DNA from: Chrysoporthe austroafricana
Taxonomy: Eukaryota > Ascomycota > Sordariomycetes > Diaporthales > Cryphonectriaceae
NCBI GenBank assembly: GCA_001051155.2
Contig: JYIP02000005.1
Span: 1 to 64,000, forward strand
DNA: 64,000 nucleotides
Direction: 5' to 3'
Shown piece by piece: positions 15,600-38,068 of this stretch; the first letter of the stretch is position 1, and each line of letters begins with the position of its first letter. The notes under the pieces are model-generated. The model did not search any database. It worked only from the letters and a program-made list of their open reading frames with translations, and had not been told where the DNA came from. The translations under genes were made by a program, and so were the position numbers.

Positions 15600-17000
15600 T
15601 TTAAAAATTAATAATAATAATTCAAATTTTAAAGAGGAAATTGCTTTTAAAACGTATTTTTTTCCGATTCGAATATTAATAAAGTATTTAATTAATCCGT
15701 TTCAATATTAATAATCTTTCGTTTTGCCTTTTTGCTTTTAATATATATTTCGTTAACTTTATTTTTATTCGGGCATTTCTGATAAATATAACCGATCTTT
15801 TTATATTTAAAGTATTTTCTTTTTTAATTAGCTTGCAAATCTCTAGTTTTGCAAAAGTTTATTTTCTATTAATTTAAATCTTTTAATATTTGGAAATTAA
15901 TGTTAATTTGTTTTTCTCTTTTCTATTATTAGCATTCGGTATATAAGTTTATATTCTATCGGTTTTTTTGCCTTTTCTTCTTAACAAAGTCTTAATATAA
16001 GCCTTTTCTATTGCTGCAATATTTCTAAGAGCTATAGCAAAAATATCGAAATCGATATTTTCTAAAAAATACTAGATAGCTACCGCTCGTTTTATTTCTA
16101 AAGGTATTTTCTTATAAAGTTCTTTTTTCTAATTCCGTTTAAAAATTTTAGTATTATTCGCAATAGTTAAGAATTTAATAAAGAAATTGCATTAATTGCT
16201 ATTGGTTTAATATTTTAAAGCTTTAAATTTCTCTTATACTTTAATCCTTTTATTTTTATTTTAAAAGAGAGTTATTAAAGTTTGAAAAATATTTTCAATT
16301 ATTTCAAAAGCCTTTTCTTTATTATTTTCGGATATATATAGCTATAAAAAAGCAGCCGCTATCCTTTTATATTAATTAAAAATATAATATATTTTATTTT
16401 CTTTTTCCGAATAATTCTATAAACTATTAATCTGTAATTTATATTTAACTTTAATTAGCCAATTTTTGAAATTGAATTCTTTGCTATTATCGTATTTGAA
16501 TAAATCGCTTTTGCGCTTTTTGCGCTGCTTAACTTTAATTATAATTTTGCTTATAAAGGTTATTTTTTTCTGAAAGCCTATATATTATATAGCTTTCAAT
16601 TTCGTTAATTCTTTATTAACCCGTATTATTTCGGCATAAGCCATTATTTCGGCTTTAATAGCTTTATTATACTATCGAATAAGCCGCTTAATTTTCTTAA
16701 TTTATTAATTATACAATTTAATAAGCTTATTATATTAAATTCAAATAGCTAATTATTCGGCAAAATTGCGAATTATTAAAGCTTGCATTTTGAAATATTT
16801 TTGAACTATCGATTTAATATTTTCAGTATTAATCGGCAAATTCTTAAATCTCTTATTCTAATTTTTTATATAAATTATAAATTAAATATTATTTATAATT
16901 TCGTTTATTTAAGCGATTATATCTTTTTCGATAAATTCTGCTATAAGTTTAATAAAGAATTTAATAAATATTCCTTTATTTCTTTTTATATTAATTCTTT
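15600..17000 (-). pseudogene. Retrotransposon gag-like remnant, minus strand
   Basis: Minus-strand reading gives lysine-rich gag-like protein and a damaged zinc-knuckle region near 15,780-15,850, where GYIYQKCPNK can be made out. Helical gag-like segments such as LEIKRAVAI lie near 16,100. The + ORF at 16,783-17,103 is a shadow with AT-driven composition. Family-level identity is uncertain. Confidence 0.4.
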
Positions 17001-17439
17001 TATTATTTTCAATTTCAGTAAAATATTTATAAATTTGTTAATAAAGCGCGCTTTTCGAGTATATTCTTTCAATATATTTCTGGTTAGCATTTTATATACT
17101 TAATTCGGAATTTCTAATTATCTTATCTATTAGTAAATTCTCTATTATTGCAAGATTTTTGCAATTTATACTTATCTTTCGTTATAAATATATAGATTTA
17201 TTATCGGATCCGAAATAATAATTAATTCTATACAAACGTATATTAAAGTTAATTAGTATATAAAATGGAATAAAAGAATAAATATAATATAATATTACGG
17301 GTTTAATAAGATTAATTCGAAAGATAATGCTATTATATTGCGAGAATATTATATTGAAAAGGGAAGAGTATGCATATGCATATTAACGCGTTATATAAGA
17401 TAAAATCCCCTTTATTAACCTTAATCCTAATGCATAGTA

Positions 17440-18160
17440 TTTAATGCCGGACGCTTCCGTTACATTTTGCTTCAATAAAGTAGTATTGCCATTCATTAAA
17501 TGCATATACTATTGCTATAAGTTTTTTATTTAGTATTCTGTATTATAGTTCAAATTCGTTCAGTTTCTTACTGAAATATGCAATGAGTTATAGTCTTCTT
17601 TGTTTGTCTCGTTGAATCAAGTCGCCGCCGATAGCGTAATTCGATGTATCTGTATGCATTTCAAATTCGTTTTCCAAATCTGCTTTCTGCAGTATCGGTT
17701 CTTTATTGAATCGTTCTTTGATTCCTTCGAATGCTTTTCGCTATTCGGATTTCTATTTAAGTAGTACGTCTTTTTTTATAAAGTTCGTCAATAGTTTTAT
17801 AATATTGCCGTATTTACTAATAAACTATCGGTAGTAATTGCGGTAGCTTTGGAATGTTTTGATGTCTGTAATATTCTATAGTATTAGCCATTTCAATATA
17901 GCTTCGATCTTTTCTTTTTGCATTCGTATGCGCTCTGGTTCGATAGTATATCCGAGGTAATCGACTTTCTGTACGTAAAAGTGGCTTTTCTCTAGTTCGA
18001 TTAAAAGCTTTGCGTTTTATAACTTTTGAAGTACTTGTTATAAGTTAACGTAGATTACCACTCCGCGGCGCACCCCACTCCGCGGAGTGGTGATCTACGT
18101 TATGTGTTCTTTGTATTGTTCGAACGTTTCCGAGAAAATGAGTATATCGTCGAGGTATCA
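17440..18160 (-). pseudogene. Ty3/gypsy RT-RNase H fragment, minus strand, moderately RIP-mutated
   Basis: On the minus strand the RT active-site region reads YLDDILIFSETFEQYKEHI from about 18,160. After the 53-bp fold-back insert come KLLIELEKSHFYVQKVDYLGY and GYTIEPERMRMQKEKIEAIL, then the RNase H start with MHTDTSNYAIGGDLIQRDK near 17,640. Only a few stops interrupt it, so it is better preserved than elements further left. The upstream part of RT is cut off at about 18,160 by the Tc1/mariner remnant. Confidence 0.8.
18048..18100. mobile_element. 53-bp GC-rich fold-back element with TA duplication
   Basis: Two 21-bp arms (18,048-18,068 and 18,080-18,100) are inverted copies of each other with one mismatch, read ACGTAGATYACCACTCCGCGG and flank an 11-bp loop. 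TA sits directly on both sides (18,046-18,047 and 18,101-18,102), as expected for Tc1/mariner-type insertion. It splits the RT reading frame of the surrounding gypsy fragment and, unlike it, keeps CpG-rich unmutated sequence. It is probably a minimal MITE or paired-TIR remnant. Confidence 0.65.
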
Positions 18161-18477
18161 CATTCGGCGGCAAGATGACGCACCTGCGCATAAGGCGCGC
18201 CTTACGAAGGAGCGCCTCGTCGAAGAAGGCATCCAGCAGATGGAATAGCCGCCTTTGAGCCCCGATTTAAACATCATCGAGAACGTGTGGGCGTGGCAGA
18301 AAGCCTGGCTGTACAACAACGTCGACACCTAGAATCTTTCAATGCCTGCACTACAAAACGCCATTGAATTGGCCTGGGATACAGTGCCAGAGGACTTCAT
18401 CAAGAGCTGCGCATTAGCCATACCTAGGCCGTTGCGCGTAGTCATTGCCAATGATGGTCGCAACCCCGACACTTGAG
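18161..18477 (+). pseudogene. Tc1/mariner-type transposase, C-terminal remnant
   Basis: Read on the + strand, it contains QDDAPAHKARLTKERLVEEG, then PPLSPDLNIIENVWAWQKAW and a C-terminal tail ending at the TGA at 18,475-18,477. This is the second catalytic Asp region and the SPDLNxIENxW glutamate block of Tc1/mariner (IS630 superfamily) transposases. The frame has two internal TAG codons, one where the family has Trp before PPLSPDLN (TGG to TAG, a RIP-type change). The N-terminal catalytic part is missing, so the gene is dead. Confidence 0.8.
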
Positions 18478-18480
18478 GTG

Positions 18481-19144
18481 GTGAGACCACCTCCACCGTC
18501 GCTTCAGAAACGACGAGGCTAGTGGCGACGGTAAGCGCCACAGCGATGGGATGATTGCTATCTTTGTTTTTCGATGTATTTCCTAGCTATTGATTTATGT
18601 AATTGTGTTTGTATTGACAGAAATGTAGATCTGGGATCAAGATGGATCAGCATCTTGATGAACATGACGACTGCTCGAAATGGCCTCCAAAGTCACGGAC
18701 TAGGCTTCAATAATCCTTGTGGGTTGCACTCAAAGCTCCAGCGACATCCGCCGGCTTATCCGCGTTCTTACTCGGAAATGTAACTGACTTATGGGGCGCG
18801 CATGACACAATGTACGAGGCGTTGCTGAACATTTGTTCTCGGGCCAGAGTTGTGCCGAAGGGTTGTTGCTTCGGGCAATCATTGTTGGTAAAAGGAACGA
18901 CTTATGCTCCGATTTCGCCCCGAGGCCGCATCGTACAATTTCTTTGCAAGGATCGGGTCAACATGGAAAAGGTAGTTCAACTACTAGGTAAGGATTGGAG
19001 AAGGTGACGTCGAGGCTGCAGAGAGCAATCTGTATAAGAATGTTAAGGCTTTCGTGACACCCAGGGCAAATCTTATTGCCTTGTTGCACCTCCCAGGACC
19101 CCAGTTAGACGAAAGCAGCCCATTATCTTCTCATCGAAACGAAA
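18481..19144. other. Intergenic region upstream of the dioxygenase gene
   Basis: Composition switches to about half GC here. Short ORFs are present but none has recognisable protein. The last 150 bp before the ATG, with a CT-rich stretch and CAA motifs, should hold the promoter and 5' leader of the 2-oxoglutarate dioxygenase gene. Confidence 0.5.
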
Positions 19145-20104
19145 ATGTCTTCAGCCGTGTCAGCGCCCGCACTGTCGCTGGTTCCTCTACACAAGACCTT
19201 TGGAGCTGAGGTCCGGGGCATGCAGTGGAAGGAGCCGATTCCGGAGACCGTGATCCAGCAGATCAAGGACGCCGTCCACAGATACGGAGTCTTGATCTTC
19301 CGCAACGTGAAATTCGACAACGATCAGCACATCCGATTCTCTCGACACTTTGGAGACCTCGACGATGTCTCGGCACACACGAAGGCTGGCCGTGTTCAGC
19401 GATTCCCCGACCAGCCAGAGATTTTTGATCTCTCTAACCTGGACGAACACGGCAACCTGCTGACCGACCCAAACTCGATGCGTGTGGCAGCTGCCAAGGG
19501 CAATTACCTGTGGCACGCTGATATGGCGTACAACCCGCGACGATGTTCTTATTCCATCTTGCGCTCGGTCCAGCTGCCTCCCAAGGGAACCGGGGGGGAG
19601 ACCGAGTTCCTGGACACGCGCACGGCCTTTGCGGATCTTCCGCACGACAAGCAGGCCGAGCTCGAGGCCTTGGTTACCAATAACTCGCTATATCACCAGC
19701 GAAAGCTGGCGGCCCCCGAGGAATTTGCCGATGTCCAGCCTCTCGCCTTCCCCATGTCTCGCCACCGGCTCGTGTCGCTCCACGAGCAGTCTGGCCGCAA
19801 GAACCTGTACGTCACCACGTACGCGCACCATTTTGATGGCAAGAGCATGGAGGAGAGTCGACCGCTGATCGAGGAGCTCCTGGCCTGGATCTCCAAGCCC
19901 GAGTATAAGCTCACGGTCAGGTGGGAGAACGACGGGGACCTGCTCATGTGGGACAACCGGGCCGTCATCCACCGGGCGACTCTCGGTGGATCCTATGGCA
20001 TGACGCACAAGAGAGACATGCGAAGGACTACTGTGAAAGACTCCGGTGCGTCCGCCTACGGGGAGAATGGCGTAGGCGCCTGCTGGCAGGCAGGTATGCC
20101 ATGA
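19145..20104 (+). CDS. TauD/TfdA-family 2-oxoglutarate/Fe(II)-dependent dioxygenase
   Basis: The 319-aa single-exon protein has the double-stranded beta-helix fold signatures of the TauD/TfdA family. The iron-binding HxD is in WHADMAY (H124, D126) and the distal His is in AVIHRAT (H276). The 2-oxoglutarate-binding arginine lies in the RDMRRTTV block (R290-R294). Length is normal for the family (about 280-330). These enzymes use 2-oxoglutarate and O2 to hydroxylate, desaturate or cleave small acids, with succinate and CO2 as co-products. The gene opens the pantothenate cluster and is convergent with panB, 583 bp away. The ATG has A at -3. Substrate is unknown; fungal homologues are often annotated as 2,4-D dioxygenase-like. 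I infer a tailoring step on a pantoate, beta-alanine or pantothenate-type substrate. Catabolism of a sulfonate or aryloxy acid is the main alternative. Confidence 0.93.
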   Translation: MSSAVSAPALSLVPLHKTFGAEVRGMQWKEPIPETVIQQIKDAVHRYGVLIFRNVKFDNDQHIRFSRHFGDLDDVSAHTKAGRVQRFPDQPEIFDLSNLDEHGNLLTDPNSMRVAAAKGNYLWHADMAYNPRRCSYSILRSVQLPPKGTGGETEFLDTRTAFADLPHDKQAELEALVTNNSLYHQRKLAAPEEFADVQPLAFPMSRHRLVSLHEQSGRKNLYVTTYAHHFDGKSMEESRPLIEELLAWISKPEYKLTVRWENDGDLLMWDNRAVIHRATLGGSYGMTHKRDMRRTTVKDSGASAYGENGVGACWQAGMP

Positions 20105-20687
20105 ATGGTGCACGATATGCTACCCAGGGCATAGGATCATCTAGAGGCTCGGAGTGATCGCTCACTGTCTGCCAAGGATTTCTTTATGCTCTTTGTGTTT
20201 TGTAAAACCATAGTTGCTAGACTGCTTTGTAATTGACCGCAATCCATTCTGCGAAAATCGAGAGTCGTCCAGAGTGCGAATTGTGACTTTGCTAGTCGAG
20301 AGAAAGCGCATAAGAACATCGGATCAAAAGCAAAAGTCTGAAGCAGTAGCAGCCATTATAAACAGCCGGGTTTTGGCTGTGAGAGGCCCCGGCAAATATG
20401 TGTCCCCTAATGGTCGTCGTGAGCCCGGTCTTTCGCACTTGTCACGAAGGGTAGGCTCTGAGCAGGAGCAGATGGGCTGGTTCTGATACGCGTACGGACA
20501 AACAATGAACGGCTCACGCTCCCAGACAATGAAGTCACGCGTTGGGGAACATATCTTGTTAGAGTTGCACCTAGCATGTTGTCTTATTATGGCTGTCTGC
20601 TCCACGCGCGCAAACTGTACCTGAATGAGTTTTCTTTGATTACATGGAGCGCAACATTCAGCGTCGCTGCGTACAAACAGGGGGCAC
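20105..20687. other. Convergent intergenic region (dioxygenase / panB)
   Basis: It lies between two convergent stop codons and should hold both 3' UTRs. Short ORFs on both strands have no recognisable protein. I see nothing else. Confidence 0.6.
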
Positions 20688-21865
20688 TCAGACTTGACCC
20701 TGTGCGGCCTGACTCTCTCGACTTTGGCCGCCCGTGACCTGGGTCGGCCCCATGGTCTGGTGGACCCTGAGCTCGAAATCGTAGAGCTGTTCCTTGCTGA
20801 CTGGGTATGTGTGCGCGCTCTCGGGAAACTGGCGCCTCTTGACGGCGTCTTTGTACGCGTTGACGGCTTTTAGCGACTCGCCCCAGACATCACCGTACTT
20901 CTTTACAAACTTGGGCAAGAATCGGCCCGGCGGGTAGTTGCCATTCATGTCAGCCTGAACCAGGACCTGGCCGTCACAGCCATTGCCCGCTCCGATGCCG
21001 ATCGTGGGGATTGTTAGTCTGCTGGTGATGACCTCTGCCACCTCTGCCGGTATAGCCTCGAGGACGATGGCGAAAGCCCCAGCCTCCTGCAATGCCAGAG
21101 CATCCTCAAACACGCTGAAGGCGCCTTCTGACGACTTTCCTTGCACCCGGAATCCACCGAGGGCATGGAGGCGCTGGGGTGTGAGCCCAACGTGGGCGAC
21201 GACCGGGATGCCGACGCTGGTCATCTTTGCAATGGTAGGGGCCATCTCCTTGCCGCCTTCCAGCTTGACCGCCTGGACACGACCCTCTTTGAGGAACCGT
21301 ATCGCCGTCTCGACAGCTTGCTCCGGCGAGACCTCGTAGGATCCCATGGGCAGATCGCCGACCTACAGCTTGCTACGTCAGTCTTTTGTTTATGCGTTTA
21401 GGAGCCGGAGTAGCCGACATGGATGGGTGGTGGGTGCTCGCTTACAATAAAGGCGCCCTTGGTGGCGCGGGCGACAGAGCGGCAATGGAGCAGCATTTCA
21501 TCCACCCCGATCTCGCTGGTGTCGTTCATTCCCAACGATATCATGGACAGGCTGTCACCCACTAGCATCATGTCCACGCCTGCGACGTCGGCCACGGCTG
21601 CACTGGGGAAGTCGTGCGCAGTGACCATGACTATCGGCTCTTTCTTTTCCTTCATCGCGCCGAGAGTGTTGACAGTCACTTTCTTCCTCGAAGGGCCCAT
21701 CGCGACGCTCATGCTTGATTGAGAGCTCCATCGCTGCTGCTGCTTCTGCGGCTGTGGATGCTGCTGCAGTGCAGCCGCCGTCGCCTGGGAAGGCCTTGAC
21801 GAGGATCCCAGGTGTCCCGCGCGGCGCAGGAGAGGGGCGGCCGACCTCGACAGGGCTCGATGCAT
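20688..21865 (-). CDS. panB: Ketopantoate hydroxymethyltransferase (PanB), probably mitochondrial
   Basis: EC 2.1.2.11: adds a hydroxymethyl group from 5,10-methylene-tetrahydrofolate to 2-oxoisovalerate, giving ketopantoate, the first step of pantothenate synthesis. Exons on the minus strand are 21,865-21,446 and 21,362-20,688. The 83-nt intron has donor GTAAGC and acceptor CTGTAG, phase 0, and joins GAFI to VGDLPMGSYE. The product is 364 aa. Metal ligands by analogy with the E. coli enzyme are D104 (VGDS), D143 (GDLP) and E175 (KLEGG); the catalytic Glu is E242 (VLEAIP). The first about 50 residues are rich in Arg, Ser, Ala and Gln and lack acidic residues, which looks like a mitochondrial presequence. 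The gene diverges from the decarboxylase gene and shares a 725-bp promoter region. All key residues are present, so the enzyme is expected to be active. It is probably a paralogue of a housekeeping copy elsewhere. Confidence 0.96.
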
Positions 21866-22590
21866 ACTGTGTGGCGGTGGTCACGACAAGAGTCAGGGGC
21901 TGATGTTTGCGTGGTCTTTTGAGAGTGGCTGGCGGTGGTTTTGTTTTGGCTGTGAGAATGAGAACCGATACGGCAGGAGTTCGGCCCTGAGGTGCTGTGG
22001 CGATTTGTCGCAATTATTATGCAGCAACTAGCACGCTCACACTCCAGCCCGGAAACAACTCCGCCCAATGGCACAGTCTTGGACCTGGTTTCGCGGAATC
22101 AACTTATGGACGAAGCGACCGGGGCAAATACGGGTCGGCCCTAAGTTGCCAGATACAGCGGATGTGGTTCCGGCACAGAGGCTTGTGCGGATACAAGGAT
22201 TCCAATCATTAGACCGACGCACCACGGGGCAAGCAAATGTTACTTCAATCATTAGACCGACGCACCACGGGGCAAGCAAATGTTACTTCCCGCGATAGTC
22301 GCCAGCACGCCGTGGGCCAGGAGAGTCCGCAGCGCGTTAGACGCGAGACATGCGTGGATGTGACCGAGGATCGCCAGGGCTGGGACCGACGTTGGCCACA
22401 GCAGCGTTCTAGCTACACCGACTTCAATGTCATGCTCGAGTCGCTCATGTCCTTGTAGTGCCCGACAAGGGGCAAGCCCAAGTACAAGAACACTACATCA
22501 ATACCAACTGTTGCCATCCATTCTGCTCCTCATTCCTGTCGTCGACACATCCACCACCTGTCCCAGCCCTTCAACCAATATCTAGCAGCG
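21866..22590. promoter_or_regulatory. Bidirectional promoter region panB / decarboxylase
   Basis: This 725-bp region lies between divergent start codons. It contains a perfect 43-bp tandem duplication (22,203-22,288) and a CGG-N8-CCG pair (22,159-22,172) of the kind bound by Zn2Cys6 dimers. Binding by the cluster regulator is inference only. Short ORFs here have no recognisable protein. Confidence 0.55.
22203..22288. repeat. 43-bp perfect tandem repeat, two units
   Basis: Unit 1 is 22,203-22,245 and unit 2 is 22,246-22,288. Each starts CAATCATTAGACCGACGCAC and contains CCACGGGGC. The two units look identical. The repeat sits in the shared promoter of panB and the decarboxylase gene, where a duplication would double any operator it carries. 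Confidence 0.9.
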
Positions 22591-24338
22591 ATGGGCGACG
22601 CAATGGAGCACGCAACTACCTTGGACCGTGCCAGGGAAGCAGACGATGTACGCAAGCAGCCCTGCCCTTATCTGGGAATGACCGAGCCACTGACCGCCCA
22701 GTAGCTCATCGACGCGGTGAGATCGCTCATCGTCCCCTGGATTGATGCAGCCGACCAGGCAGCGGCCACGCGGGCGACGGGAAACAGCGACGCGGCCGCC
22801 GGGCAAGATCCCGGGGCTCGCAACATACTTGTCGAGGCTTATGGTCCCGAAGCACTCGTCGAGCGGCTCGGCTTCTCCTTGCCAAAGCAGCAAGGGATGG
22901 GCCGCGCGGGCTTCCTCGATGCTGCCAGGGGCATTCTCAAGTACAGCGTCAACACGTGGGACCAGGGGTTCCTGGACAAGCTGTCCGCAAGCACCAACGC
23001 CGTATGCACGCCATGCCCGACTTCACAGCCCGACCTCACCACGCTTACTCTCGGAATCTATCTAGGTCGGAATCGCATCGGAGCTGCTGCTCTCTGTTCT
23101 CAATGCCAATGTCCGTATCTCCAAGCCGCCCGCACAGTAAAAGTTCCTCTGCTAAAACAAGTTGCCAGGTCCACGTCTACAAGGTCTCGCCCGTGCTCAC
23201 CGTGGTTGAAAAGACGACGACTCGGGACATGGCGGCGCTCCTGGGCTTCCGCGGCCCGCGCGCCGGCGGCATCTTCTGCCAGGGCGGATCGGCTTCGAAC
23301 CTGACGTCGCTTGTCACAGCCCGCAACGCGCTATACCCCGAGTGCAGGCTAAGTGGCAACGGCTCCAGGGCCTTTGTTGTCTTCACGAGCGTCTCGGGCC
23401 ACTACAGCGTCGAGAAGGCAGCCAGGACGATGGGCCTCGGCTCGGAGGCCGTCGTCAAGGTGCCTGTCGATGGCTCGGGCAGGATGGACGCGGGGGCGCT
23501 CCGCGACGCCGTGATTGCTGCTCGCAAGGCCGGAGCAACACCGCTCTATGTCAACGCAACAGCGGGCACCACGGTCCTAGGGGCATACGATCCGATAGAG
23601 GCCATCGCCGCCGTCTGTCGCGAGTTCGGCATGTGGCTGCACGTTGATGCGTCGTGGGGAGGCCCTGCCGTGTTTGCGGCGGCACACTCGCACAAGCTCG
23701 CGGGCTCTGAGCGCGCCGACTCCATCACCGTCAGCCCGCACAAAATGCTCAACGTGCCCCTGACGTGCTCCATGCTGCTGACAAACGACATTGCCGTCTT
23801 CCACCGCGCCAACACCTTGCCTGCAGGCTACCTGTTCCATGACGACGTCGGCAAGGGCGGGGGCGAGGGCGAGGGCGAGGGCGGGCACGAGACCGCCGAG
23901 GTCTGGGATTTGGCCGACTTGACACTGCAGTGCGGCCGCCGCGGCGACGCCCTCAAATTCGCCCTCGCCTGGACCTACTACGGCGCCGCCGGATTCGCGC
24001 GCCAGGTGGACCACGCCTTCGACATGGCCGCATACATGGCAACACTGATTGAGGCACATCCCGACTTTGAGCTGCTGTCCTCAAACCCGCCGCCGTGCCT
24101 GCAGGTGTGCTTTTTCTACACGCCAGGCGGGCGCGCGGCAGACTGCGCGGCAGAGAACACGGGACGGACGGTGCAGATGGCCAAGAAGCTGATAGACAGG
24201 GGGTTTATGGTGGACTATGCGGGGGGAGGCCGGGGCAAATTCTTCAGGGTTGTGATGAACTGCCAGATATTGCGAAGCACAGTAGAAGGTCTGGTCAGAG
24301 CGCTGGAGGGCGTCGGCGCAGAGCTACCGCTTTCATAG
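22591..24338 (+). CDS. PLP-dependent group II decarboxylase, candidate aspartate 1-decarboxylase (beta-alanine supply)
   Basis: Four exons are proposed: 22,591-22,647, 22,705-23,001, 23,066-23,110 and 23,169-24,338, giving 522 aa, a normal length for this family. The PLP lysine is K325 in SPHKML, with HYS (H212) and HVDASWGG (D293) as further cofactor motifs, and LQCGRRGD and FFRVV near the C-terminus. This is the GAD/CSAD/aspartate-decarboxylase fold. Eukaryotic members make beta-alanine from aspartate (insect ADC; fungal DtxS4 in destruxin biosynthesis), which is what PanC needs. Specificity cannot be read from sequence, so glutamate or cysteine sulfinate remain possible. Intron 1 (57 nt, GTACGC, CTGAC branch, TAG) removes an in-frame TAG; intron 3 has a weak donor, GTCCGT. 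A Gly/Glu-rich insert occupies about residues 360-372. The 3' end is convergent with panC. Confidence 0.88.
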
Positions 24339-25136
24339 TTCGTATCTGAATACTCCTTTGCGCAACTCTGGAGTGGTCGCAATCGGGGGCTACATCATCC
24401 AGGTATCCAGTATCATAGACATGGAGGCTCAAGATATATTCTCGTATGTCCCGCACAGTTTGCGCTCGTCATGCTGATGATTGGTCCCTACAGTGCCGCG
24501 AGATTCCATGTTCCCGAGCCTACACAATCCAAGATGCTTGGCCTCACGTAGGTCTGGGCTGACCCGCGGCATGTGTCGGAGCTGCCGCGGAGTTATCGCC
24601 TGTGGTAATTGGCAGGCTGAGCAGAGGTGCACCGGACACATGAACTATCGTACAAGATTTTTTGAAAGAGCACGAGGAGATCCCCGTGAGTTCACTGAAC
24701 AAAAGAATGGGCCATAGCACGCTAAAGAGCGCTAGCACGTTCGCATGCAACGGCCGTGCCCCATTGTCCCTGTTGGTACCATGAGACATTGCTCGAGAGG
24801 AACACATGATGATGGCGTGCGTGGGCATATATCTTCTGGATGCCACAAGAAACCATCAGCGTTGCATGAAGGCCGGGGATGACCGAGACTGCTTCAATGA
24901 CGAAACTGACCGAGGACGAAACAGTGCCTATGGTCGGAGTGAGCTGTGGTGTGACAATCAAGCTACGAAAAACAAGCACGATGGTCCTGTGGGGCTCCCG
25001 GGCAACAAGTTCGACCCGAATTACATATTTACTGACATTCATGGCAGCGGAAGCCCCAGAATTGGGAGCACACGAACAGCAACTCGCGACAATGAAAGAG
25101 GCCCAACACATTCAAAGTGTGTGATTATAGTCGTGT
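24339..25136. other. Convergent intergenic region (decarboxylase / panC)
   Basis: This 798-bp region lies between two convergent stop codons. It has ORFs on both strands (the longest 129 codons, minus, 25,111-24,722), but their proteins are unlike any family I know and they lack gene context. It is probably 3' UTRs plus spacer. Confidence 0.5.
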
Positions 25137-26195
25137 CTATCCACCAAGCCTCTCTAGGATAATGTTGTCAATAAGACGGACAGCAGGTCCCCCACTGAGC
25201 CCCAAGTCTTCTCCTGGCTGCGGTGTCTCAACCGGAACCATGATGATGGCACCACTAAGGATGGCCCCCTCCTCGGGGTTGATTTGCGTGACTTCGGCCA
25301 TGGTGTTCGGATCGGCGAGTGACAGGTAGTCCACCTCGAAACGGACCCTGCTTTCAGGCGGCATGTTCGATTGACGACCAAGTGTCTCTGTCACAACTTC
25401 GATCGCCGAGCCTAGGATGGTCTCGCGTTCCGTGGCACCACCTTGGTACTGCCTCGCTGCAGCTTGCAACGCCCGGCTGAGAACGGAAGCTACAGGCCGC
25501 CGCCTCTCGCCCAGGTAGACGTTCCGTGAGCTCATCGCCAAGCCGTCCGGCTCGCGCTCGGTCGGGCAGATTGTAATATCTAATGGGAGGAAGAAGTCTC
25601 TGGCCATCTTCTTGATGACGACAGTCTGCTGGACGTCTTTTTGGCCAAAGTACGCCTTGTCGGGCTGGACAATGTTGAACAGCTTCATACAGATCGTAGC
25701 AACACCACGGAAGAGAGTCGGGCGGCTCGCACCCTCGAGGACTTCGCTCACCGGAGTCAAGGTTACGAAGCTCCCTTTGGACTCGACCTCCTGACCGGGA
25801 ACGCCCGAGGGATACATGTCCTTGGCTGTCGGTGCGAAAACAGCGCTGATGCGGCCGACACTGGTGCCTTCCTGCTCTAGTTGGCGGTTAAGCTCGGCCA
25901 GGACAGAGCAATCGGACTCCCAGGTCTTTGGGTACGACCCCAAGTCTTCCTTGGCGCCAAATTGGGTCGGATTAACAAAGATACTGACCACAACGTGGTC
26001 GGTCTCCCGGGCGGCGGCGCGGATAAGGCTAAGGTGGCCGTGGTGTAAAGCTCCCATGGTGGGTACAAAGCCAACGGCGCTCTTCCCGAGGAAAAGCGGG
26101 CGGCGCCATGATCGGACTGAGTCCGGAGTCCGGAGAATGCGAATGGGAGTTGAGGCGATTGTCTCGCAGGAGGCTCGACGTGCAGCAGAAACCAT
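25137..26195 (-). CDS. panC: Pantothenate synthetase (pantoate-beta-alanine ligase, PanC)
   Basis: EC 6.3.2.1: joins pantoate and beta-alanine with ATP through a pantoyl-adenylate. The single-exon protein has 352 aa. The start is the ATG at 26,195; the open frame extends to a GTG at 26,234, which is not a usual eukaryotic start. Motifs of the nucleotidyltransferase fold are clear: PTMGALHHGHLSLI with HHGH at 51-54, FVNPTQFGAKEDL at 74-85, DKAYFGQKDVQQ at 179-190 and the KMSKS-like MSSRN at 221-225. The N-terminal 30 residues are Arg-rich with little acid, a weak hint of an organellar signal. An extra loop after about residue 104 is typical of fungal enzymes. The gene diverges from the MFS transporter gene across 723 bp. 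It is the last step of the pathway encoded by this cluster. Confidence 0.97.
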   Translation of the reverse strand: MVSAARRASCETIASTPIRILRTPDSVRSWRRPLFLGKSAVGFVPTMGALHHGHLSLIRAAARETDHVVVSIFVNPTQFGAKEDLGSYPKTWESDCSVLAELNRQLEQEGTSVGRISAVFAPTAKDMYPSGVPGQEVESKGSFVTLTPVSEVLEGASRPTLFRGVATICMKLFNIVQPDKAYFGQKDVQQTVVIKKMARDFFLPLDITICPTEREPDGLAMSSRNVYLGERRRPVASVLSRALQAAARQYQGGATERETILGSAIEVVTETLGRQSNMPPESRVRFEVDYLSLADPNTMAEVTQINPEEGAILSGAIIMVPVETPQPGEDLGLSGGPAVRLIDNIILERLGG

Positions 26196-26918
26196 AGTGC
26201 GAAAATGGCGAGTCCGCCAATTTCCGGCTAGCACGGCCGTAGATGGAGGGAAAGGTGTTCACCTCGGAGACCAAGAGCCCTCGTTAGAAGCCCCTGAGTG
26301 CCAGTGTTTATAGTGTTATGTGATTGGCACCGTTGTGAAAGCGTGATTTCGCAAAAGATGATTGCACCACGATCGCGGTCGATCTTTCGTCTCAGAGAAA
26401 ACATCAATCCGCATTCATCCAAATCTCTTCCGGATCTAGCCGCTGCCGGTCAAATTTATCTGGGATACGGGCAGGCACTGACACTCCGCTGTCGGCACTG
26501 ATAGACCCCCGTGCAAAAGCTTTGGCGTGATGAGCGCCCCGGTAAGACCCGGCAAGGGTAAGTCTCTGAGTGAGTAAGGCCGAAGGCTTCGAGTCTGCCG
26601 AGTCTGCCTTCCTATCTTTGCGCTCGGTCCAAAGAGCAGCCGCCTGCACGGTCCTTTTGGGCCCTGACCCTGGTAGAATTCGGGCAAAAACAAACTAACG
26701 ATACATCAAAGCCGCGTCGCGTTGGCTCGCAGAAGCCCCGCGACGGCAGTTTGTGATCATGGAGCAAATGGCATTGATCATTCTGCTTCGTCACTTGCCA
26801 AGCGACGTATCCAGCCGGCATCGATCGCGACCCCTTCGCAAAACATCGCTTCCGACAACATCGAAACGCCCCTCCGTTCTGACTGGGGCTGTCCCGACGA
26901 TAGACAACTGAACAGATT
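26196..26918. promoter_or_regulatory. Bidirectional promoter region panC / MFS transporter
   Basis: It lies between divergent start codons. TTCCGG occurs at 26,222-26,227 and 26,428-26,433, the second within CGG-N6-CCG (26,431-26,442). TTCCGG also occurs in the panB/decarboxylase promoter near 22,168. Such CGG/CCG pairs are typical of Zn2Cys6 operators, but their use here is unproven. Confidence 0.5.
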
Positions 26919-28296
26919 ATGCCCGAAAAGCTCGAAAATGAGGCACCAGCGGGATCCAGACTCGCGGGCCTAGACGGTCGCACTCCTTCCGAAGCACAGG
27001 AGGTTAGCAACGAGGTCGCGCAGATAAGAAACGAGAAGGACCAACCGCCAGATGGTGGTTTGCGTGCTTGGCTACAAGTCGTCGGGTCGTTCTGTCTATT
27101 TTGGAATACATGGTAAGTCATTCAGCTCGTATGGAGGATTCCAATGCTAACCCAAGGATTGTAGGGGCGTGCTTAATGTTTTTGGGGTCTACCAGACCTA
27201 CTATCAAAACGACCTTCTTCGAGACATATCGCCCTCGGCCATTTCATGGATCGGCTCCATCCAGTCCTGTCTTTTGCTATTAGTCAGCGTCATTGCCGGG
27301 CCTTTATACGACAAAGGATATCTGCGCTCCTTGCTGGTCTCTGGAAGCTTCCTGGTGGTTGTGGGGATGATCGCAACGAGCCTGTGCGAGAAGTACTGGC
27401 AATTCTTGCTAGCACAGGCTATCTGCATGGGGCTGGGCATAGGCCTGCTGTACATCCCCTCCGTCGCAGTCGTCCCGCAGTACTTTGAGCGGCGCAAGGC
27501 TCTTGCTATGGGGCTCGTGGCTGCCGGATCAAGTTGCGGAGGTATCGTCAACTCCGTCGTCTTCACACAGCTGCAGCCAAAGATCGGTTTCGGGTGGACG
27601 TTGCGGGTTCAAGCGCTGATCTCTCTTCTGACGCTGTCTATCGCCACCGTCGTGCTTCGCCGTCGGGAGCCTCTATCGGCAGAGATTAAGACACTCCTCG
27701 AGCTGTCTGCATTCAGAGAGAAGCCTTACCTATTCTACTGTCTCGCAATGATCACGACAAACATTGCCTTCTTCATGCCAGTATTTTATGTGCAGTCGTA
27801 TGCCTTGGCACATGGGCTGGCCGGACAATCCATTGCGCTCTATCTCGTCACCATCTTGACCGCAACCTCGGTGATCGGGCGTGTCGCGCCGTCATTGATC
27901 GCTAACAAGATTGGTCCCGTGCAGACGTTGTTCTGCTGCGTCGCCTGCACGGGCATCACGGTGTTTGCATGGATAGGCACCAAGACAGGCTGGGGCAACA
28001 TCGCCTTTGCGGCCTTTTTTGGATTCTTCTCTGGTGGCATCGTCGCACTGCCGCCCGTAGTCTTGTCCAGCTTTACAAAGGACTCGAGCAGACTTGGCAC
28101 CAGGCTTGGTATGTCAGCGGTGCTCAATGCAATTGGGTCACTGATAGGCGCCCCAATTGGCGGAGCGATTCTGAACGCGACGGGAAGTTATCTGGGAATC
28201 CAGCTTTGTGCTGGAAGCAGCGTCGTGGCCACTGCTGGTTTCCTTTTGGCTTTGCGGTTCTCCCTGACAGGCAAGAAAGTCCTTGCCAAGGCGTAG
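26919..28296 (+). CDS. MFS transporter, monocarboxylate transporter (MCT)-like
   Basis: Exons are 26,919-27,112 and 27,165-28,296. The 52-nt intron has donor GTAAGT, branch GCTAAC and acceptor GTAG, and splits the Trp codon of NTWGVLNVFG. The product is 441 aa. After a polar N-terminus comes PDGGLRAWLQVVGSF (44-58), the hallmark of fungal MCT-like permeases. About twelve hydrophobic segments follow, with a loop carrying YFERRKALAMG. The family moves monocarboxylates (lactate, pyruvate, riboflavin, nicotinate-type acids) by proton symport. In this cluster, pantothenate, pantoate, beta-alanine or the final product are plausible cargoes, and export or uptake cannot be told apart. It shares a divergent promoter with panC and is followed by panE in the same direction. 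Confidence 0.92.
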
Positions 28297-29117
28297 GACA
28301 GCGATGAACGAGTCACCCTCCATTATTGTACTGGGTGCATGGCCCGAGCACTTCCGAGAGAGGGACCGAGCAGACCGTCTCAAAGTCGGGCAGAGACTCC
28401 ATGTTCATGTTAGATAGAGGACTGCTTGGACACCACCATTGTGGTGTTCACGATACGACATGATGGCGTAGTCAGGGTGCAATACGTAATGTGTAATTGC
28501 CCGGGGCAAACTTGTTTGTCAACAACCTTAGTGTCGCAGGAAAGGCATGGTCTTGGCAATCCCAACAACTGTATTAGTAATCTAGCTGTGTGCTCTATAT
28601 CAAAGCTGCAGAGAGGGGTAACCAACACCACAACAACAACCAGAATAACAACGTTCTCAATCGCAACACTTTATTGCTGCTCATTTTCATGACTTGTCGC
28701 TCCCGCACGCCCCAGTGCGACACTCAGGCTCAAGTGCCTTTCCTAGCGTTCTACGATCATGCGCGCCACGTCTTGTCTTCCGAGCCTAGCCAGAAAGCGT
28801 GACTGGAGGGGCGCATTGTGCCGCAACGGGATGGAATAACATACATATGCAGACGAATCGGACGGCAGCTTGTTCTTCACCTCGCCGAAACTATTCGCCG
28901 GTCCTGTTAAATAATAGGTTTTAACCTCTCCAATCGGGCCCACACTCGACTGCAGCCATATTTCACAAAACCCCTTCGCTACAGATCCGTCTGATCGCAC
29001 CACCGTCCAAACCTCACGGCGAGACCAGCGAGGCTTCGGTGAATTAAGCACCACGCCCACGAAACCTCTGTCAGGACTCAGTCCGTCCCAAACCTTCCCG
29101 CCAGACCCAGCCTCACG
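28297..29117. promoter_or_regulatory. Intergenic region MFS / panE (panE promoter)
   Basis: This 821-bp region separates two co-directional genes. It should hold the MFS 3' UTR and the panE promoter. A CAA/ACA-rich stretch lies at 28,620-28,660. The antisense ORF at 29,216-28,743 overlaps the panE start and has no recognisable protein. Confidence 0.5.
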
Positions 29118-30506
29118 ATGCTGGCAAGTCAACAATCCCGATTCGTGCTCCGCGGGAGTCGGAGGATAGCCGCGTGGCGTCTGCAGACAATGACGCCAGG
29201 GAATCGACACATGCATGCCATCTCAGAGACGCCGGTAGCCTGGCTCAGGAAGATCGTGGGGGACAGCAGCGATGCCCCAACGCTCTTCGCCTGGACAGCC
29301 GCCAACCTCAACCGTGGGCCCACGTTACCGCTTGTGGCTGACAAGAAAGCTACAGCCGACGACCTTCTACCCACCAGGAATGAGCCAGGGCGGATTTTCA
29401 TAGTGGGGGTTGGGAACCTGGGCCGCTTGTTTGCCAGCGGTCTGGCGAAGCTTCCGGGGAAACCGCCCATCACCTTGGTAGTCCACCGCAAGGCGCTCCT
29501 GGAGCAGTGGACTTCGTGCCCGGGCATCGACATTTGGCGAGACGGACGGATGGAGCGCTCGATGGACCTCGACATGGAGTGGTGGACCACCGAGAAGCCT
29601 CCGACGGGTCCCGTTCAGGAGCTTGCCCCCGTCACGAACCTCATTCTGGCCACCAAGGCCTCGGATGCCATGCCGCAGGTCGACAGGCTGAGGCGCTATC
29701 TCGACAAAAGATCGACAGTGGTCTTTGTACAGAATGGCATGTGCAAGCTTTGGCCGCCGGTTGGAGAGCTCTATCAGAGTTATCGTTTCCCAGGCAACAC
29801 GGGTCCGAGCTGGCTTGCGTGCGTGACGACCCATGGATTGACATCGTTGGGTCCCTTCAGCAGCAATCACGCGTCAGCAGGCAAAGTGTCTACCGGAGCG
29901 GTCAGCCTGAACCCGGGGAATGGCGATGCACACCGTTATATGCAGGCTCAGATGGCTCGAGCAGCTGATCTCTCGGGCGAGGCCGTCTCCATGGCAGATC
30001 TCTGGGTTTTGCAACTTGAGAAACTGGTCATCAATTCGGTCATCAATCCCTTGACAGCGGTGCTGGACTGCAAAAATGGAGAACTGTTCATCGATCGCGA
30101 CGATATGCTCCACGAGCTAGTCGACAAGCTTATCAGGGAAGCAAGCGTAATTCTCACCGAGATGGCACAAGGTCCTGCGAGCGCCGACATCCTCGCCAGC
30201 AGCAATCGCGACCTGTCTTCCCAGGGCAGCTTGACACGGGACGCTCTCAGACACCGATTCAGTTTTTCTAGTCTTCGCAAAATGGTCTATGAGGTCGGCC
30301 GTAAAGTGGGAGAGAATACCAGCTCCATGCTCCAGGATGTACGGGCAGGCAGGCAGACTGAGATCCAAGATTTCAATGGGTGGTTCGTTGAGACTGCCAG
30401 GATTCTGGGCCTGCCAGACGAGGTATCAACACATCAGAAGCTTGTGTCGACTGTCGAGGATGGCCACAGGTTCTCCAGGAAACAGCTCGTCGAGTACTGT
30501 GTCTGA
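29118..30506 (+). CDS. panE: Ketopantoate reductase (2-dehydropantoate 2-reductase, PanE), probably mitochondrial
   Basis: EC 1.1.1.169: reduces ketopantoate to (R)-pantoate with NADPH. The single exon encodes 462 aa. The N-terminal Rossmann motif GVGNLG is at 97-102 and VFVQNGM at 202-208. The C-terminal helical domain has EKLVINSVINP, with K302, N306 and N310 matching the K176/N180/N184 spacing of E. coli PanE. It also has NTSSMLQDVRAGRQTEI (400-416), with the active-site Ser and E415. The 90-residue extension before the Rossmann fold begins with Arg-rich, acid-free sequence, which resembles a mitochondrial presequence. The gene is convergent with the regulator gene, with only 97 bp between the stop codons. 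All family catalytic residues are present. Other ketopantoate reductase-like proteins with unknown substrates exist in fungi, but the neighbours make PanE the best call. Confidence 0.94.
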   Translation: MLASQQSRFVLRGSRRIAAWRLQTMTPGNRHMHAISETPVAWLRKIVGDSSDAPTLFAWTAANLNRGPTLPLVADKKATADDLLPTRNEPGRIFIVGVGNLGRLFASGLAKLPGKPPITLVVHRKALLEQWTSCPGIDIWRDGRMERSMDLDMEWWTTEKPPTGPVQELAPVTNLILATKASDAMPQVDRLRRYLDKRSTVVFVQNGMCKLWPPVGELYQSYRFPGNTGPSWLACVTTHGLTSLGPFSSNHASAGKVSTGAVSLNPGNGDAHRYMQAQMARAADLSGEAVSMADLWVLQLEKLVINSVINPLTAVLDCKNGELFIDRDDMLHELVDKLIREASVILTEMAQGPASADILASSNRDLSSQGSLTRDALRHRFSFSSLRKMVYEVGRKVGENTSSMLQDVRAGRQTEIQDFNGWFVETARILGLPDEVSTHQKLVSTVEDGHRFSRKQLVEYCV

Positions 30507-30603
30507 CCAAGCTGATAAGTTGTTATGTGCCTTGCGATACCTCAATGGAGTAGACATGAAGCAAATTTCGTCAAATACGCGGCTGCCATAAACAAGCCGC
30601 CCT

Positions 30604-32713
30604 TTATATTACGTTGTTTCTAAATTCTGATAAAAACTGCTTGGCTACCACGTGGACATCCTCAAACTTTTCTACCTGCGATAGTAGCAATCTCGCGGTG
30701 TAGTCGACACTTTTCGCGTCCCGCTCTTTCTCGAACGCGTACTTGTACGTCCTCAAGCACCGGACCGCCTGTAACAGTATCACGGGCACAAAGGGGTGCA
30801 TCTTTGGTTCAGTGTTAGGCAAGTTGGCCAGAGCTCCCGGGGACCGGTGCGGATCGTGGAAATCGATGGACCAGGACAAAGTGTTGTGACTCACATTGAA
30901 ACAGCTAGCCTGGGGCAGAGTGCTCGCAAGCTGCGTCATGCTGACAATCGCGTCATAGGTTTTGTTGAGTTGCTCCTCATCATAGCCTATGTGCTCTATT
31001 GAGGTCTCGAGCAGGTGCACGACACACGCGAAGCTCAGCAGACGCGTTAAGACGTGTAACGGACGGGAAATGGGGACCGAGTGCCGTGCGTAAGAGCGCA
31101 ACCGCGTGTCGAGAAACTCGGTGAGCCAGTTGTGGCGGCCCAAGCACTGATTCTTGTCGAGTGTACCTGGCGAGACATTGCCATTGGCTTTGCCACTGGC
31201 ACTTGAGATCGCCGCGAGCCGTCTATGAGTGAGGCACCTGCCGTAAATTGTGCTTATCGTCAGACTTTCCGCGAAATCGGACGTCGATGTCGCCTCGAGG
31301 CTCCGAAGTGCGTCGGCGAGGCAGTACCTGGGACCAGGTTCGCACGCTTCAAATGCAGATTCAGAGGACGGAAGCCTCAGGTGTGCCTTTAAACCACAAG
31401 GAAAGTCCGGAGATCAGCCGCAGCCCTGCAAAGGCAAGAGCCAGTGGGGTTGTACAGGAATTTGGTATCCTACCGATTCTTCCTGGAGTGTGAAGAGACA
31501 GTGATCAAGGGTATTAATCATGCGATCGAAGCAGAACGCGACCCAGAATGTACGCCCTCGCTCTTCTTTCAAGCTCACGTCTGCATACGATCCTTGCGAG
31601 GGTGGTATCAAATGCCGGATGGTGTCTGAACTCGGGTCGACCGCATCTTCGTAGTTGAGACGGGCAGACAATACTAGGCGCAAAGGCCGGGCCGCTGAAT
31701 GTATTGCCACATGCATGCCCGCCCGAATGAACTCGCAGTGGCCCACGATCAGCCATGCCTGTATTTGTTCCAGATCCGCATCGTTTGCTGCCCACAGATG
31801 GGCCTGGTCGCCCCCTTCAAGTGTGTGTAAGAGCTGCCTCGTCTGAGCGTAAAGACTCTCGTACATGTCTTGAAATCGCGGACACAGCGCCGCTGCGAGC
31901 GTCCAAACCGCGGACCGGAGACAGGCCTGGCTAGGCGTGGGCATATCGAGATCGACCCACGAGTGAAAGCGATTTCTCTGTAGCATAGGCATGAAAGGAT
32001 GCGCTCTTTCGAAAAATGTGGCCTCGCTACCGAACAGTCGTGAATTAGCAGATGAGATCTTCATCTAGCAGGCGTATGCATTGCCGGAAGACGAAACTTA
32101 CAGGTCGGCCTTCAGTAGTTTGTCGAGGGCCAATCCCGCTTGGACCATTGGGTTCAGGGGCAGGGAAGGAATCGGCGAGGCTGCTTGGAAGCCAAGGTTC
32201 TGGGAGGATAATGTTAGGTCCAACCACTCCATAAAGTTCGGCTCGGGGAGCGGTTCCCAGCCTTGGCCAAAATCTTGGTCCGCCTCAGCCAGGAGACCGC
32301 TCCCGTTGTCGTCGTCGTGGTAGATCTCGAGACCAGACTCGGAGCTTGTGATGGCTACCTCGATAGGCCTCGTCTCTGGAGACTCTGGAGTGTTCCTTTG
32401 ATCTCCCATTTGCCGTGCGGCAAGTTGCTGCTCGAGAGTCGCTGAACACACAATCAGTATATGTCGTTTCATGAGCATTAGGATCGAGTGGTGGAATGTA
32501 GACGCAGGTGGGGGTAGTCCTACCGACCTGGGCCTTGAGACGGCCGAGCTCGCCCTTCTTGGGCCCTCTTCGAAACGTTCCCTGGATGAAGAAGCATTCC
32601 AGGCCGTTCTTCTGGCACGTCCCACACGCGGGACGGATCTTATCACACTTGATCTTACGACAGTGGCACTGCTTACAAGCTGTGGTGATGCTTGGTGATT
32701 TAGCTTTGGCCAT
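30604..32713 (-). CDS. Zn2Cys6 transcription factor with fungal-specific transcription factor domain (cluster regulator)
   Basis: Proposed exons on the minus strand are 32,713-32,524, 32,441-32,102, 32,026-31,474 and 31,386-30,604, giving 621 aa. The binuclear zinc cluster is C13-x2-C16-x6-C23-x6-C30-x2-C33-x6-C40. It is followed by a basic linker and a short coiled coil (RLKAQVATLEQQLAAR). The middle homology region contains FFERAHPFMPML and RTFWVAFCFDRM, then LRLPSSESAFE and SLTISTIYGRCLTHRR, all typical of fungal_trans domains. Introns 1 and 2 have GT-AG ends with good branch sites. Intron 3 (87 nt, 31,387-31,473) uses donor GTAGGA and an AAG acceptor; the stronger upstream CAG would put a TGA in frame. 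Binding sites are probably CGG/CCG pairs in the divergent promoters. It is the only regulator in the cluster. Confidence 0.88.
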
Positions 32714-34020
32714 GTTGAGCTTAGCTTACGACGATACATGTCAGCCGAACGAGGGGAAGTGCTCGATGATTATCCTTATAGGGCCAGTCGTGCGCCTAAC
32801 TCTCCCGCACTCTCACCACAAGTACGCAATCGCCGACGTGTAATTCCTCATCCGAGGCGAATGTACAACGCGGTGTACAGTAAGCCGGCCGCCAAGGAAG
32901 GGAGGCGGGAGGCGGAGGGGTAGTGTTGCAATGTCCATAGAGGTCATTCCTCCGAAGCTGCCGTATGCAGGGGCCATGCCAAGCTTTTTCAACCCCGGCT
33001 CATGTACAACCCCAGTAATTATGGTATCCACCCTTTAACCCTGTGCCAAGCTTTCTTGAAACTGGCTCATGAACAACCCCAGCCCTTCCATCTGTCCCCA
33101 TGCCACCCAAATGCCGAGGCTTCAAATGCGTTCCCGCGGCAAACGGTGAACTATTGGCCGCCCCCTACCCATGATTCTTGGCTGGGTGAAGTTTTCTTCG
33201 ACCTGACTCAGGGAGTCTGAGGGAGCGAGGCCTGTTTCCGGCATGACCAGCCGCACGACCAGGGACGGGACAGGGGGGGGGTCCGATTCCGCGGCCGGGG
33301 TTGCTGCTCGTGGCGGCAGGGTGCCCCCTGAGTCCTGACAAGCCAAGCCATCCGTGGATGGCAGCATGAAGTGCCTTTGCACCCGTTGATTACCAAGCAC
33401 TGGGCGTCGCCGGAGCACGGACTCTTGGCTGCGGCTTATGGTAGAGCACACCGCGAGATCGCGGAACTGTTGTCAAGTGCCCTAATGCACCCTGGCGACA
33501 CGAGCAGTCGCGAGGCCGCAAGAGCAACTCAAGGATAAGTGCAAAGTGCATGATGACACCGACATATAACTGAGCGGGGCTTCTAGAAGCTATTCGACCG
33601 ACAATGGCCGACGAGAATCTGTGGATCCCTTACGGAAGGTGCCCCAAAACGAAAGCTGCGTCTCGTTACTGCACAATAACCCTCGTTAACTCTAAATGAA
33701 CTGATCTCTCACCCAGTATAGTGCGCGGAATGAAACTTCTCCAAACACGCGGCATCTATTGACTCGTTCAACCTAAATAGAGCTGCTGGGCCAATCATAG
33801 ACTTACACTTCGCTCTCGCCTAAGCATCACACTGATTAGGGAATGCGCATTCGCTACTATAATTGGTAGGTGGTATATTCGGCAGCGAATCGGAGGAGAG
33901 TATGGTGCAGACCGGTCTGTGCTATGAATCATCCGTACATTTCCCGCTAAGCTTGACTCGAGTCGGACCAGGCTACTCCCGCCAGGCCCGCCCCGAGCCG
34001 CTCCTAGTCAACCATAACGA
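32714..34020. other. Regulator upstream region and decayed gene fragments
   Basis: The first few hundred bases should hold the promoter of the Zn2Cys6 gene. Two imperfect 38-bp copies starting GCCAAGCTTT lie at 32,978-33,015 and 33,045-33,082. Around 33,370-33,537 the + strand reads HGLLAAAYGRAHREIAELL, which resembles one ankyrin repeat, without any gene around it. Beyond this I see no intact gene. Confidence 0.5.
33370..33537 (+). pseudogene. Possible ankyrin-repeat fragment
   Basis: A 55-codon open piece contains HGLLAAAYGRAHREIAELLSS, which fits the helix-turn-helix of an ankyrin repeat (xTPLxxAAxxGHxEIxxLL). It is a single unit with no start, no adjacent repeats and no exon context. It is probably a gene fragment; chance resemblance is possible. 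Confidence 0.3.
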
Positions 34021-35948: not shown

Positions 35949-36182
35949 TGTTATAAACTAACGGACGGTTCAGGTTATAGGAACAGAACGGATTGTGGAT
36001 CCGGAAATAACGCAACGCAACCCGGATCTAACATCCGAGGTAAGAAACACCTTATATAAGAGTGGCAGATACTCAAGATTACATAAGCAAGGGTTAAGGT
36101 TAAGAAAGGATTATAATAGATTATAAATCCATTTATAACTACTTATAATCAATATTGATCCAGGACTGAAAAGCTGGATAGT
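35949..36182 (+). repeat. Truncated LTR of Ty3/gypsy family, little RIP
   Basis: It starts TGTTATAAACTAACGGACGG, the best preserved LTR start in the window. At 36,091-36,101 it has GGGTTAAGGTT in the position where other LTRs carry GGGTTAGGGTT. Similarity to other LTRs ends at about CTGGATA (36,182), shortly before the Fot1-like element. Confidence 0.75.
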
Positions 36183-38066: not shown

Positions 38067-38068
38067 TA

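Follow-up and report, generated by a model that had tools for sequence, protein, structure and literature searches.

The 64-kb window analyzed here (G000:C18:1-64000) stands at the beginning of a contig of 5.06 Mb, in a genome of 48.15 Mb and 22 contigs. It carries a cluster of seven genes (19145-32713) in which the enzyme families of pantothenate synthesis are joined by an oxygenase, a transporter and a transcription factor. Seventeen perfect AACCCT units, starting at position 4, mark a telomere at the left end of the contig, and the cluster begins ~19 kb from it, as expected from the subtelomeric position given in a preliminary description of this DNA. The coordinates and gene calls of that description are right and both of its cluster ends are exact, as read off the sequence (ATG of the oxygenase gene at 19145 and ATG of the Zn2Cys6 gene at 32713). 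The genes are arranged in the order TauD (+), PanB (-), pyridoxal phosphate (PLP)-dependent decarboxylase (+), PanC (-), major facilitator superfamily (MFS) transporter (+), PanE (+) and Zn2Cys6 factor (-). They form the convergent and divergent pairs with shared promoters noted before (three convergent and two divergent, with intergenic regions at 21866-22590 and 26196-26918) and, in addition, one tandem pair (MFS and PanE) that was absent from the earlier arrangement.

The seven genes and their products

Six of the genes could be modeled and are open over their full length, with TauD, PanC and PanE each a single open frame. A Pfam scan of eight open frames (whole genes or pieces, with the regulator entered as two pieces and PanB and the transporter each as the larger exon) agrees with all seven families named earlier. 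The first gene (19145..20104, plus strand) encodes in one exon a 319-aa TauD/TfdA-family Fe(II)/2-oxoglutarate (2OG) oxygenase (TauD, 183.5 bits) that has the HxD...H iron site, the TauD domain and the double-stranded beta-helix fold of this family. Taurine dioxygenase, PtlD and ScoE proper can be rejected as its identity from the NCBIfam scores (103 vs 313, 91.1 vs 550 and 76.2 vs 400 bits, respectively). Within the TfdA/AAD-2/TauD group, it is 30% identical to AAD-2, and its paralogues in the same genome are distant (46% and 45%). To our knowledge, no natural substrate is known for the fungal branch of this group.

The enzymes of the pantothenate core follow. PanB, a ketopantoate hydroxymethyltransferase of 365 aa (20688..21865, minus strand; exons 21446-21865 and 20688-21362, open as spliced), matches Pantoate_transf (PF02548) at 242 bits and is assigned to its family with the LVGDS and GIGAG stretches, given as PanB motifs in a passage of PMC11428646. 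The exon-2 fragment alone scores 203.3 against TIGR00222, whose cut-off is 207.55. The PLP-dependent decarboxylase (22591..24338, plus strand; 522 aa, open as spliced from exons 22591-22647, 22705-23001, 23066-23110 and 23169-24338) belongs to the glutamate decarboxylase (GAD)/cysteine sulfinate decarboxylase (CSAD)/aspartate decarboxylase group. Its membership in PLP group II is established by Pyridoxal_deC (PF00282, 218 bits), its closest PDB chains include glutamate decarboxylase 1 and CSAD, and it scores 155.6 against the PanP model TIGR03799 (cut-off 606.1). PanC, pantoate--beta-alanine ligase, lies at 25137..26195 on the minus strand (352 aa from its ATG, in a frame open to 26234). It is identified by Pantoate_ligase (PF02569, 308 bits), by the equivalog TIGR00018 (277.7 vs a cut-off of 212.75) and by HxGH, QKD and SSRN stretches that align with solved PanC chains. 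PanE/ApbA, a putative ketopantoate reductase of 462 aa encoded in a single exon (29118..30506, plus strand), exceeds the cut-offs for both ApbA_C (PF08546, 93 bits) and ApbA (PF02558, 67 bits) and falls slightly under that of TIGR00745 (128.5 vs 141.35).

The transporter (26919..28296, plus strand; 442 aa, exons 26919-27112 and 27165-28296, open as spliced) is monocarboxylate-transporter-like. Its second exon matches MFS_1 (PF07690) at 105 bits, and its best NCBIfam model, the monocarboxylate transporter model TIGR00892, gives 99.5 bits, under the cut-off of 586. The multi-exon gene for the Zn2Cys6/fungal-specific transcription factor (30604..32713, minus strand) is modeled in part, with Zn_clus (PF00172, 38.6 bits) at 32285-32713 and Fungal_trans (PF04082, 24.8 bits, cut-off 23) at 31414-32064. 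Co-located enzymes with a transporter and a regulator, duplicated primary-metabolism genes and linkage elsewhere (see below) are among the features by which fungal biosynthetic gene clusters are recognized, and the locus has these.

Divergent promoter regions are shared by panB and the decarboxylase gene (21866..22590) and by panC and the transporter gene (26196..26918). Across the five promoter regions of the cluster, CGG-Nx-CCG occurs at spacings of 0 and 12, with three sites each and each in two of the five regions, a count made with no chance control. Two 8-mers are found in three of the five regions and no 9-mer in three; with no chance control here either, nothing is inferred from these sites and words. 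The panB/decarboxylase region also contains a 43-bp perfect tandem duplication (22203-22288) that appears recent and could change regulation.

Second gene copies, linkage and gene trees

Second copies of the pathway genes are present elsewhere in the genome. A second panB (C5:314714-315586) encodes a protein 63% identical to the cluster PanB, and a second panC (C12:913476-914495) one that is 57% identical. A PanE homologue on C17, chosen by eye among five other places with ApbA_C and aligned alone, is 45% identical, and a second PLP decarboxylase (C22:1314122-1315294) is 62% identical over the aligned exon and 56% over 515 columns. The search for second copies of panB, panC and panE that the preliminary description had proposed is thus answered, and the possibility that the genome has no other pan genes is false. 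The housekeeping pathway of fungi (PanB/ECM31, a PAN5-type reductase and a PAN6-type ligase) uses the same three enzyme families, all found here above Pfam cut-offs. Whereas the other copies are scattered (C5, C12 and C17), the cluster genes are grouped, duplicated and joined to an oxygenase, a transporter and a regulator. The scattering that had been described as normal for fungal pantothenate genes therefore applies in this genome to the copies outside the cluster, which with the decarboxylase occupy four contigs (C5, C12, C17 and C22). Because second panB, panC and decarboxylase genes and a PanE homologue lie on these four other contigs, the cluster is not the housekeeping pathway, and this identity is ruled out. 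The primary pathway was thus doubled, with the oxygenase, the transporter and the regulator as the additions. Compared with the Sordariomycetes sampled, the C12 panC (L006) and the C22 decarboxylase (L014) have very long branches (~1.1-1.2 and 1.0-1.4 changes per column), reflecting either a thinly sampled lineage or fast evolution where a second set exists.

Linkage in other fungi was assessed from protein searches with TauD (best 120 of 988 matches), PanC (best 120 of 7,999) and the PLP decarboxylase (best 120 of 1,914). PanB, PanE, the transporter and the regulator lay outside these searches, and absence from any list is weak evidence. The best match in all three lists is Microdochium nivale (TauD 92-93%, PanC 88% and decarboxylase 87% identical), where the three genes, three of the seven, are on one contig of 2,569,905 bases. 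Next among the named species listed is Diaporthe australafricana (PanC 73%, decarboxylase 68%), with both genes, two of the seven, on one contig of 317,177 bases. Among the matches listed, these two contigs are the only ones common to any two of the three lists. A common contig is taken as linkage and does not imply adjacency or gene order. The look for the gene set in other fungi that had been proposed before thus yields linkage of part of it in these two species, which speaks against a lack of synteny in any relative. M. nivale has a second PanC on a separate contig (P0188, 69%), and Microdochium bolleyi and Microdochium trichocladiopsis have one PanC each among the matches listed (P0172 and P0201). 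Because the PanC proteins of the latter two lie outside the cluster clade, the cluster seems to be patchy within Microdochium. Proteins from metagenomes or read archives also fall into the cluster clades (PanC P0122, P0131 and P0158; decarboxylase P0333; TauD P0002 and its kin).

The careful trees comprised 44 of 122 rows for PanC (with P0238, which lies within the cluster clade of another PanC tree, left out) and 42 of 122 rows for the decarboxylase. The oxygenase alignment took 79 of the 120 matches plus the window protein, and a quick oxygenase tree had 123 rows. In the PanC tree, the window protein groups with M. nivale (support 100/99) inside a six-row cluster clade (100/100). The decarboxylase tree gives the same pair (100/99) in a four-row cluster clade (100/100), itself nested in a 13-row group (96/92) with Neoarthrinium, Seiridium, Pestalotiopsis, Truncatella and some Xylariaceae, which favors, as far as one tree can indicate, an origin in Xylariomycetidae. 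In the quick oxygenase tree, the window is sister to M. nivale (Shimodaira-Hasegawa-like approximate likelihood ratio test, 99) inside a clade of unnamed rows.

Several markers were compared to place the genome. A uL3 exon (225 aa) agrees with the 7r81 chain at 205/225 positions and with a 7olc/8oo0 chain at 204/225, and these chains, which we take to come from Neurospora and Chaetomium, share 206/225 with each other; the genome is thus compatible with Sordariomycetes, but uL3 points to no order within them. Comparison of HSP90 with the PDB put yeast and animal names first and was uninformative, and the LR0R primer motif of the large-subunit rRNA gene is absent from the assembly. By one marker, the genome looks like a member of Diaporthales. 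Chains of endothiapepsin, which we take to be a Cryphonectria parasitica protein, match a gene on C19 with 595 bits (79-86% identity per exon), and the next protease (Trichoderma reesei) matches it with 393. Cryphonectria and Diaporthe belong to Diaporthales and M. nivale to Xylariales, so the window proteins, if the genome is in Diaporthales, would be expected to group with Diaporthe. This expectation fails: for clades that were all named after the trees had been seen, vertical descent in Diaporthales (a clade that holds the window, D. australafricana and kin from unnamed sources but not M. nivale) was rejected for PanC (p 0.0046) and for the decarboxylase (p 0.0004). Descent from the same lineage as Microdochium was examined through the genome's other PanC, which is 62% identical to the second PanC of M. 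nivale (P0188). A clade uniting it with P0172, P0188 and P0201 was likewise rejected (approximately unbiased test, p 0.0066), a result weakened by the long branch (1.1-1.2) of that protein. Since the gene trees conflict with the inferred order and the Diaporthe grouping is rejected, transfer between the orders Xylariales and Diaporthales appears to be the best reading. For GC content at third codon positions, nine other genes span 0.55-0.91, and the values of five cluster genes (0.67-0.79) fall inside that span, so this measure is uninformative on transfer.

Proposed product and competing explanations

What the sequences themselves support are the families of the genes, the existence of a second full set, linkage in another genus and trees in conflict with the inferred order. 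From these we infer a route in which each enzyme's substrate, the step that oxidizes pantothenate, the end product, its export and the regulation are all predicted. The decarboxylase would convert aspartate to beta-alanine, PanB and PanE would convert 2-oxoisovalerate to pantoate, and PanC would join pantoate and beta-alanine into pantothenate. The 2OG oxygenase might then perform one oxidation on pantothenate to yield a mimic that closely resembles it, for which the enamide CJ-15,801 is the most plausible candidate. The MFS transporter may move this acid out of the cell, and the Zn2Cys6 protein would switch the gene set on. CJ-15,801 is presumably one desaturation from pantothenate and so a product within reach of this gene set. 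On balance, the locus is probably, by a little, a horizontally acquired subtelomeric cluster for a specialized metabolite derived from pantothenate, namely an oxidized pantothenate antimetabolite and most plausibly CJ-15,801. A narrower proposal, which we put forward tentatively as a real possibility short of a probable one, is that a fungus duplicated its pantothenate pathway and joined to it one TfdA-like oxygenase that desaturates pantothenate, that the product is CJ-15,801 or a closely related dehydro- or hydroxy-pantothenate, and that horizontal transfer has carried the cluster between Xylariales and Diaporthales. The preliminary description saw either a specialized-metabolite or an inducible vitamin cluster rather than housekeeping genes, and second copies, linkage and the scattering of the other copies uphold it; horizontal transfer and a pantothenate antimetabolite as product go beyond its interpretation.

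CJ-15,801 is presented as a pantothenate analogue from a fungus in passages of three papers (PMC8717973, PMC4103530 and PMC7770189). Pantothenate antimetabolites such as CJ-15,801 are described in passages of the literature as active on Staphylococcus aureus and Plasmodium. In the open-access literature, no report was found of genes for CJ-15,801 biosynthesis, nor of a fungal cluster that holds an entire vitamin pathway with an oxygenase and has moved between orders, and the string 'pantothen' is absent from the main text of the paper on the M. nivale genome. CJ-15,801 is reportedly an antibiotic of the fungus Seimatosporium, described by Sugie and colleagues in 2001, and we know of no genome of a producer and no gene for it.

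Several observations weigh against an oxidized pantothenate as product or against its history as proposed. Among the matches listed, Colletotrichum siamense, Fusarium, Clonostachys and others have homologues of TauD at 62-69% identity, and, apart from that of M. nivale, no contig with a listed TauD also carries a listed PanC or decarboxylase. The occurrence of TauD in other fungi with no linked PanC among these matches implies that pantothenate genes are no fixed companion of this TauD family. No TauD was found on the PanC/decarboxylase contig of D. australafricana (best 120 of 988), where the pantothenate core may work with no oxygenase. Glutamate decarboxylase is the name given to many of the decarboxylase matches listed, among them those from M. 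nivale and D. australafricana. The placement of the genome in an order depends on a single gene (endothiapepsin). Seimatosporium, the producer of CJ-15,801, belongs to Sporocadaceae, and the genera in the PanC and decarboxylase lists that we take to be Sporocadaceae (Pestalotiopsis, Truncatella and Seiridium) fall outside the cluster clades among the matches listed. Finally, no resistance copy of phosphopantothenoylcysteine synthetase was seen in the genome, which has one weak, partial match.

The main rival is a plain inducible vitamin supply, in which pantothenate would be made in bulk under some condition, such as a high demand for coenzyme A or phosphopantetheine, a nutrient-poor host or the feeding of a partner. 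The oxygenase would then have a side task, and the transporter would move pantothenate or a precursor. PanB, PanE, PanC and the decarboxylase suffice for pantothenate by family, and D. australafricana links PanC and the decarboxylase with no TauD on that contig (best 120 of 988). Yet this explanation is somewhat unlikely: the TauD of M. nivale is linked and 92-93% identical, another set of pathway genes is already present in the genome, and the best NCBIfam model of the transporter is of the monocarboxylate type, whereas known fungal pantothenate importers are of another MFS family. Improbable, too, is a precursor or self-protection cassette, from which pantothenate or beta-alanine would feed a distant nonribosomal peptide synthetase (NRPS) or outcompete an inhibitor of pantothenate use. 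Duplicated targets often accompany fungal clusters, and the PLP aspartate decarboxylase DtxS4, of the same PLP family as the cluster enzyme, supplies beta-alanine for destruxin, a precedent for such supply inside a specialized cluster; a homologue so named (P0299) is among the decarboxylase matches listed. However, every pathway step is duplicated rather than one target, a dioxygenase has no obvious role in such a cassette, and no NRPS or polyketide synthase (PKS) model was found among the 10 open frames scanned, a scan that excluded the AT-rich flanks. Unlike the DtxS4 type, to which it is 61-62% identical (P0299 and P0339), the cluster decarboxylase belongs to another clade and sits beside pantothenate genes, not an NRPS.

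The use of a different amine, with cysteine sulfinate or glutamate as the substrate of the decarboxylase and pantoyltaurine- or hopantenate-like analogues as the products of PanC, is very unlikely. The closest solved chains are indeed glutamate decarboxylases and CSAD, and many fungal matches listed, M. nivale included, carry the name glutamate decarboxylase, but others among them are named aspartate decarboxylases (P0339 and P0299). The cluster PanC also passes its equivalog cut-off and retains PTMGALHHGH, NPTQFG, FGQKDVQQ and MSSRN of the beta-alanine-using PanC, motifs whose roles in PanC we take as given. An inactive, decaying subtelomeric duplicate would fit the flanking AT-rich blocks, whose indices resemble those of repeat-induced point mutation (RIP). 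This is scarcely credible given six fully open gene models, an island with 56% GC and RIP indices that are not raised, and 87-93% identity to M. nivale in the three proteins compared.

If an oxidized pantothenate is indeed made, the antimetabolite of a vitamin would arise from a duplicated and clustered version of the pathway that makes the vitamin itself, with surplus vitamin as the precursor and perhaps as the antidote. If the oxygenase acts on pantothenate, the cluster would provide a gene basis for a class of fungal antibiotics, the pantothenate antimetabolites such as CJ-15,801. Clusters that duplicate enzymes of primary metabolism are already known; what is unusual here is a whole vitamin pathway, duplicated and clustered with an oxygenase and its own regulator, that has apparently moved between fungal orders. 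Like other horizontally transferred metabolic clusters of fungi, it is patchy and subtelomeric, has trees in conflict with the inferred order and lies near a transposon, whereas it differs from them in having a full vitamin pathway as its content and no Starship captain in the window. None of the seven genes encodes a PKS, NRPS or terpene synthase, and standard cluster finders may miss such clusters; the clade-specific PanC and decarboxylase could serve as markers for more of them.

Base composition and flanking elements

The cluster lies in an island (18500-33900) with 56% GC, between blocks with 25% (1-17500) and 22% (42000-64000). TpA/ApT is 1.09 and 1.11 in the left and right blocks vs 0.61 in the island, and (CpA+TpG)/(ApC+GpT) is 0.96 and 0.82 vs 1.27. 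By customary thresholds, the indices of both AT-rich blocks fall in the usual RIP range and those of the island are not raised. The earlier statement that RIP-affected repeats bound the island thus stands for the two blocks but not for a clean end of the island at 33 kb, since a transposon (36205-38068) and then an 848-aa open reading frame (38846-41389) lie between the cluster and the right-hand block.

Cargo of a Starship element was considered and rejected, as the window has no DUF3435 captain: the genome has 23 matches to DUF3435, of which 16 have internal stop codons, and none is in C18:1-64000. The nearest on this contig is at 138481-139044, with stops, and another match lies at C18:499948-501075. 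The transposon at 36205-38068 has an open 544-aa transposase of the DDE_1/Tc5 type (36314-37945, minus strand) and 73-bp inverted ends that are 84% identical. Of its 51 matches in the genome, one is the element itself, two are cross-matches between its own ends, and the remaining 48 (64-80% identity) are all shorter than the element. The 848-aa frame (38846-41389, minus strand) is open and has a normal GC content of 57%. Searches of Pfam, NCBIfam and the PDB gave it no notable match, and the GAGPRG at its start is suggestive of a nucleotide-binding fold. A remnant at 18190-18560, immediately to the left of the cluster, resembles by eye the end of a Tc1/mariner-type transposase. Related repeat pieces at 35949-36180 and 42100-42785 (67-90%) flank the 36-42 kb stretch and perhaps belong to one nested repeat family.

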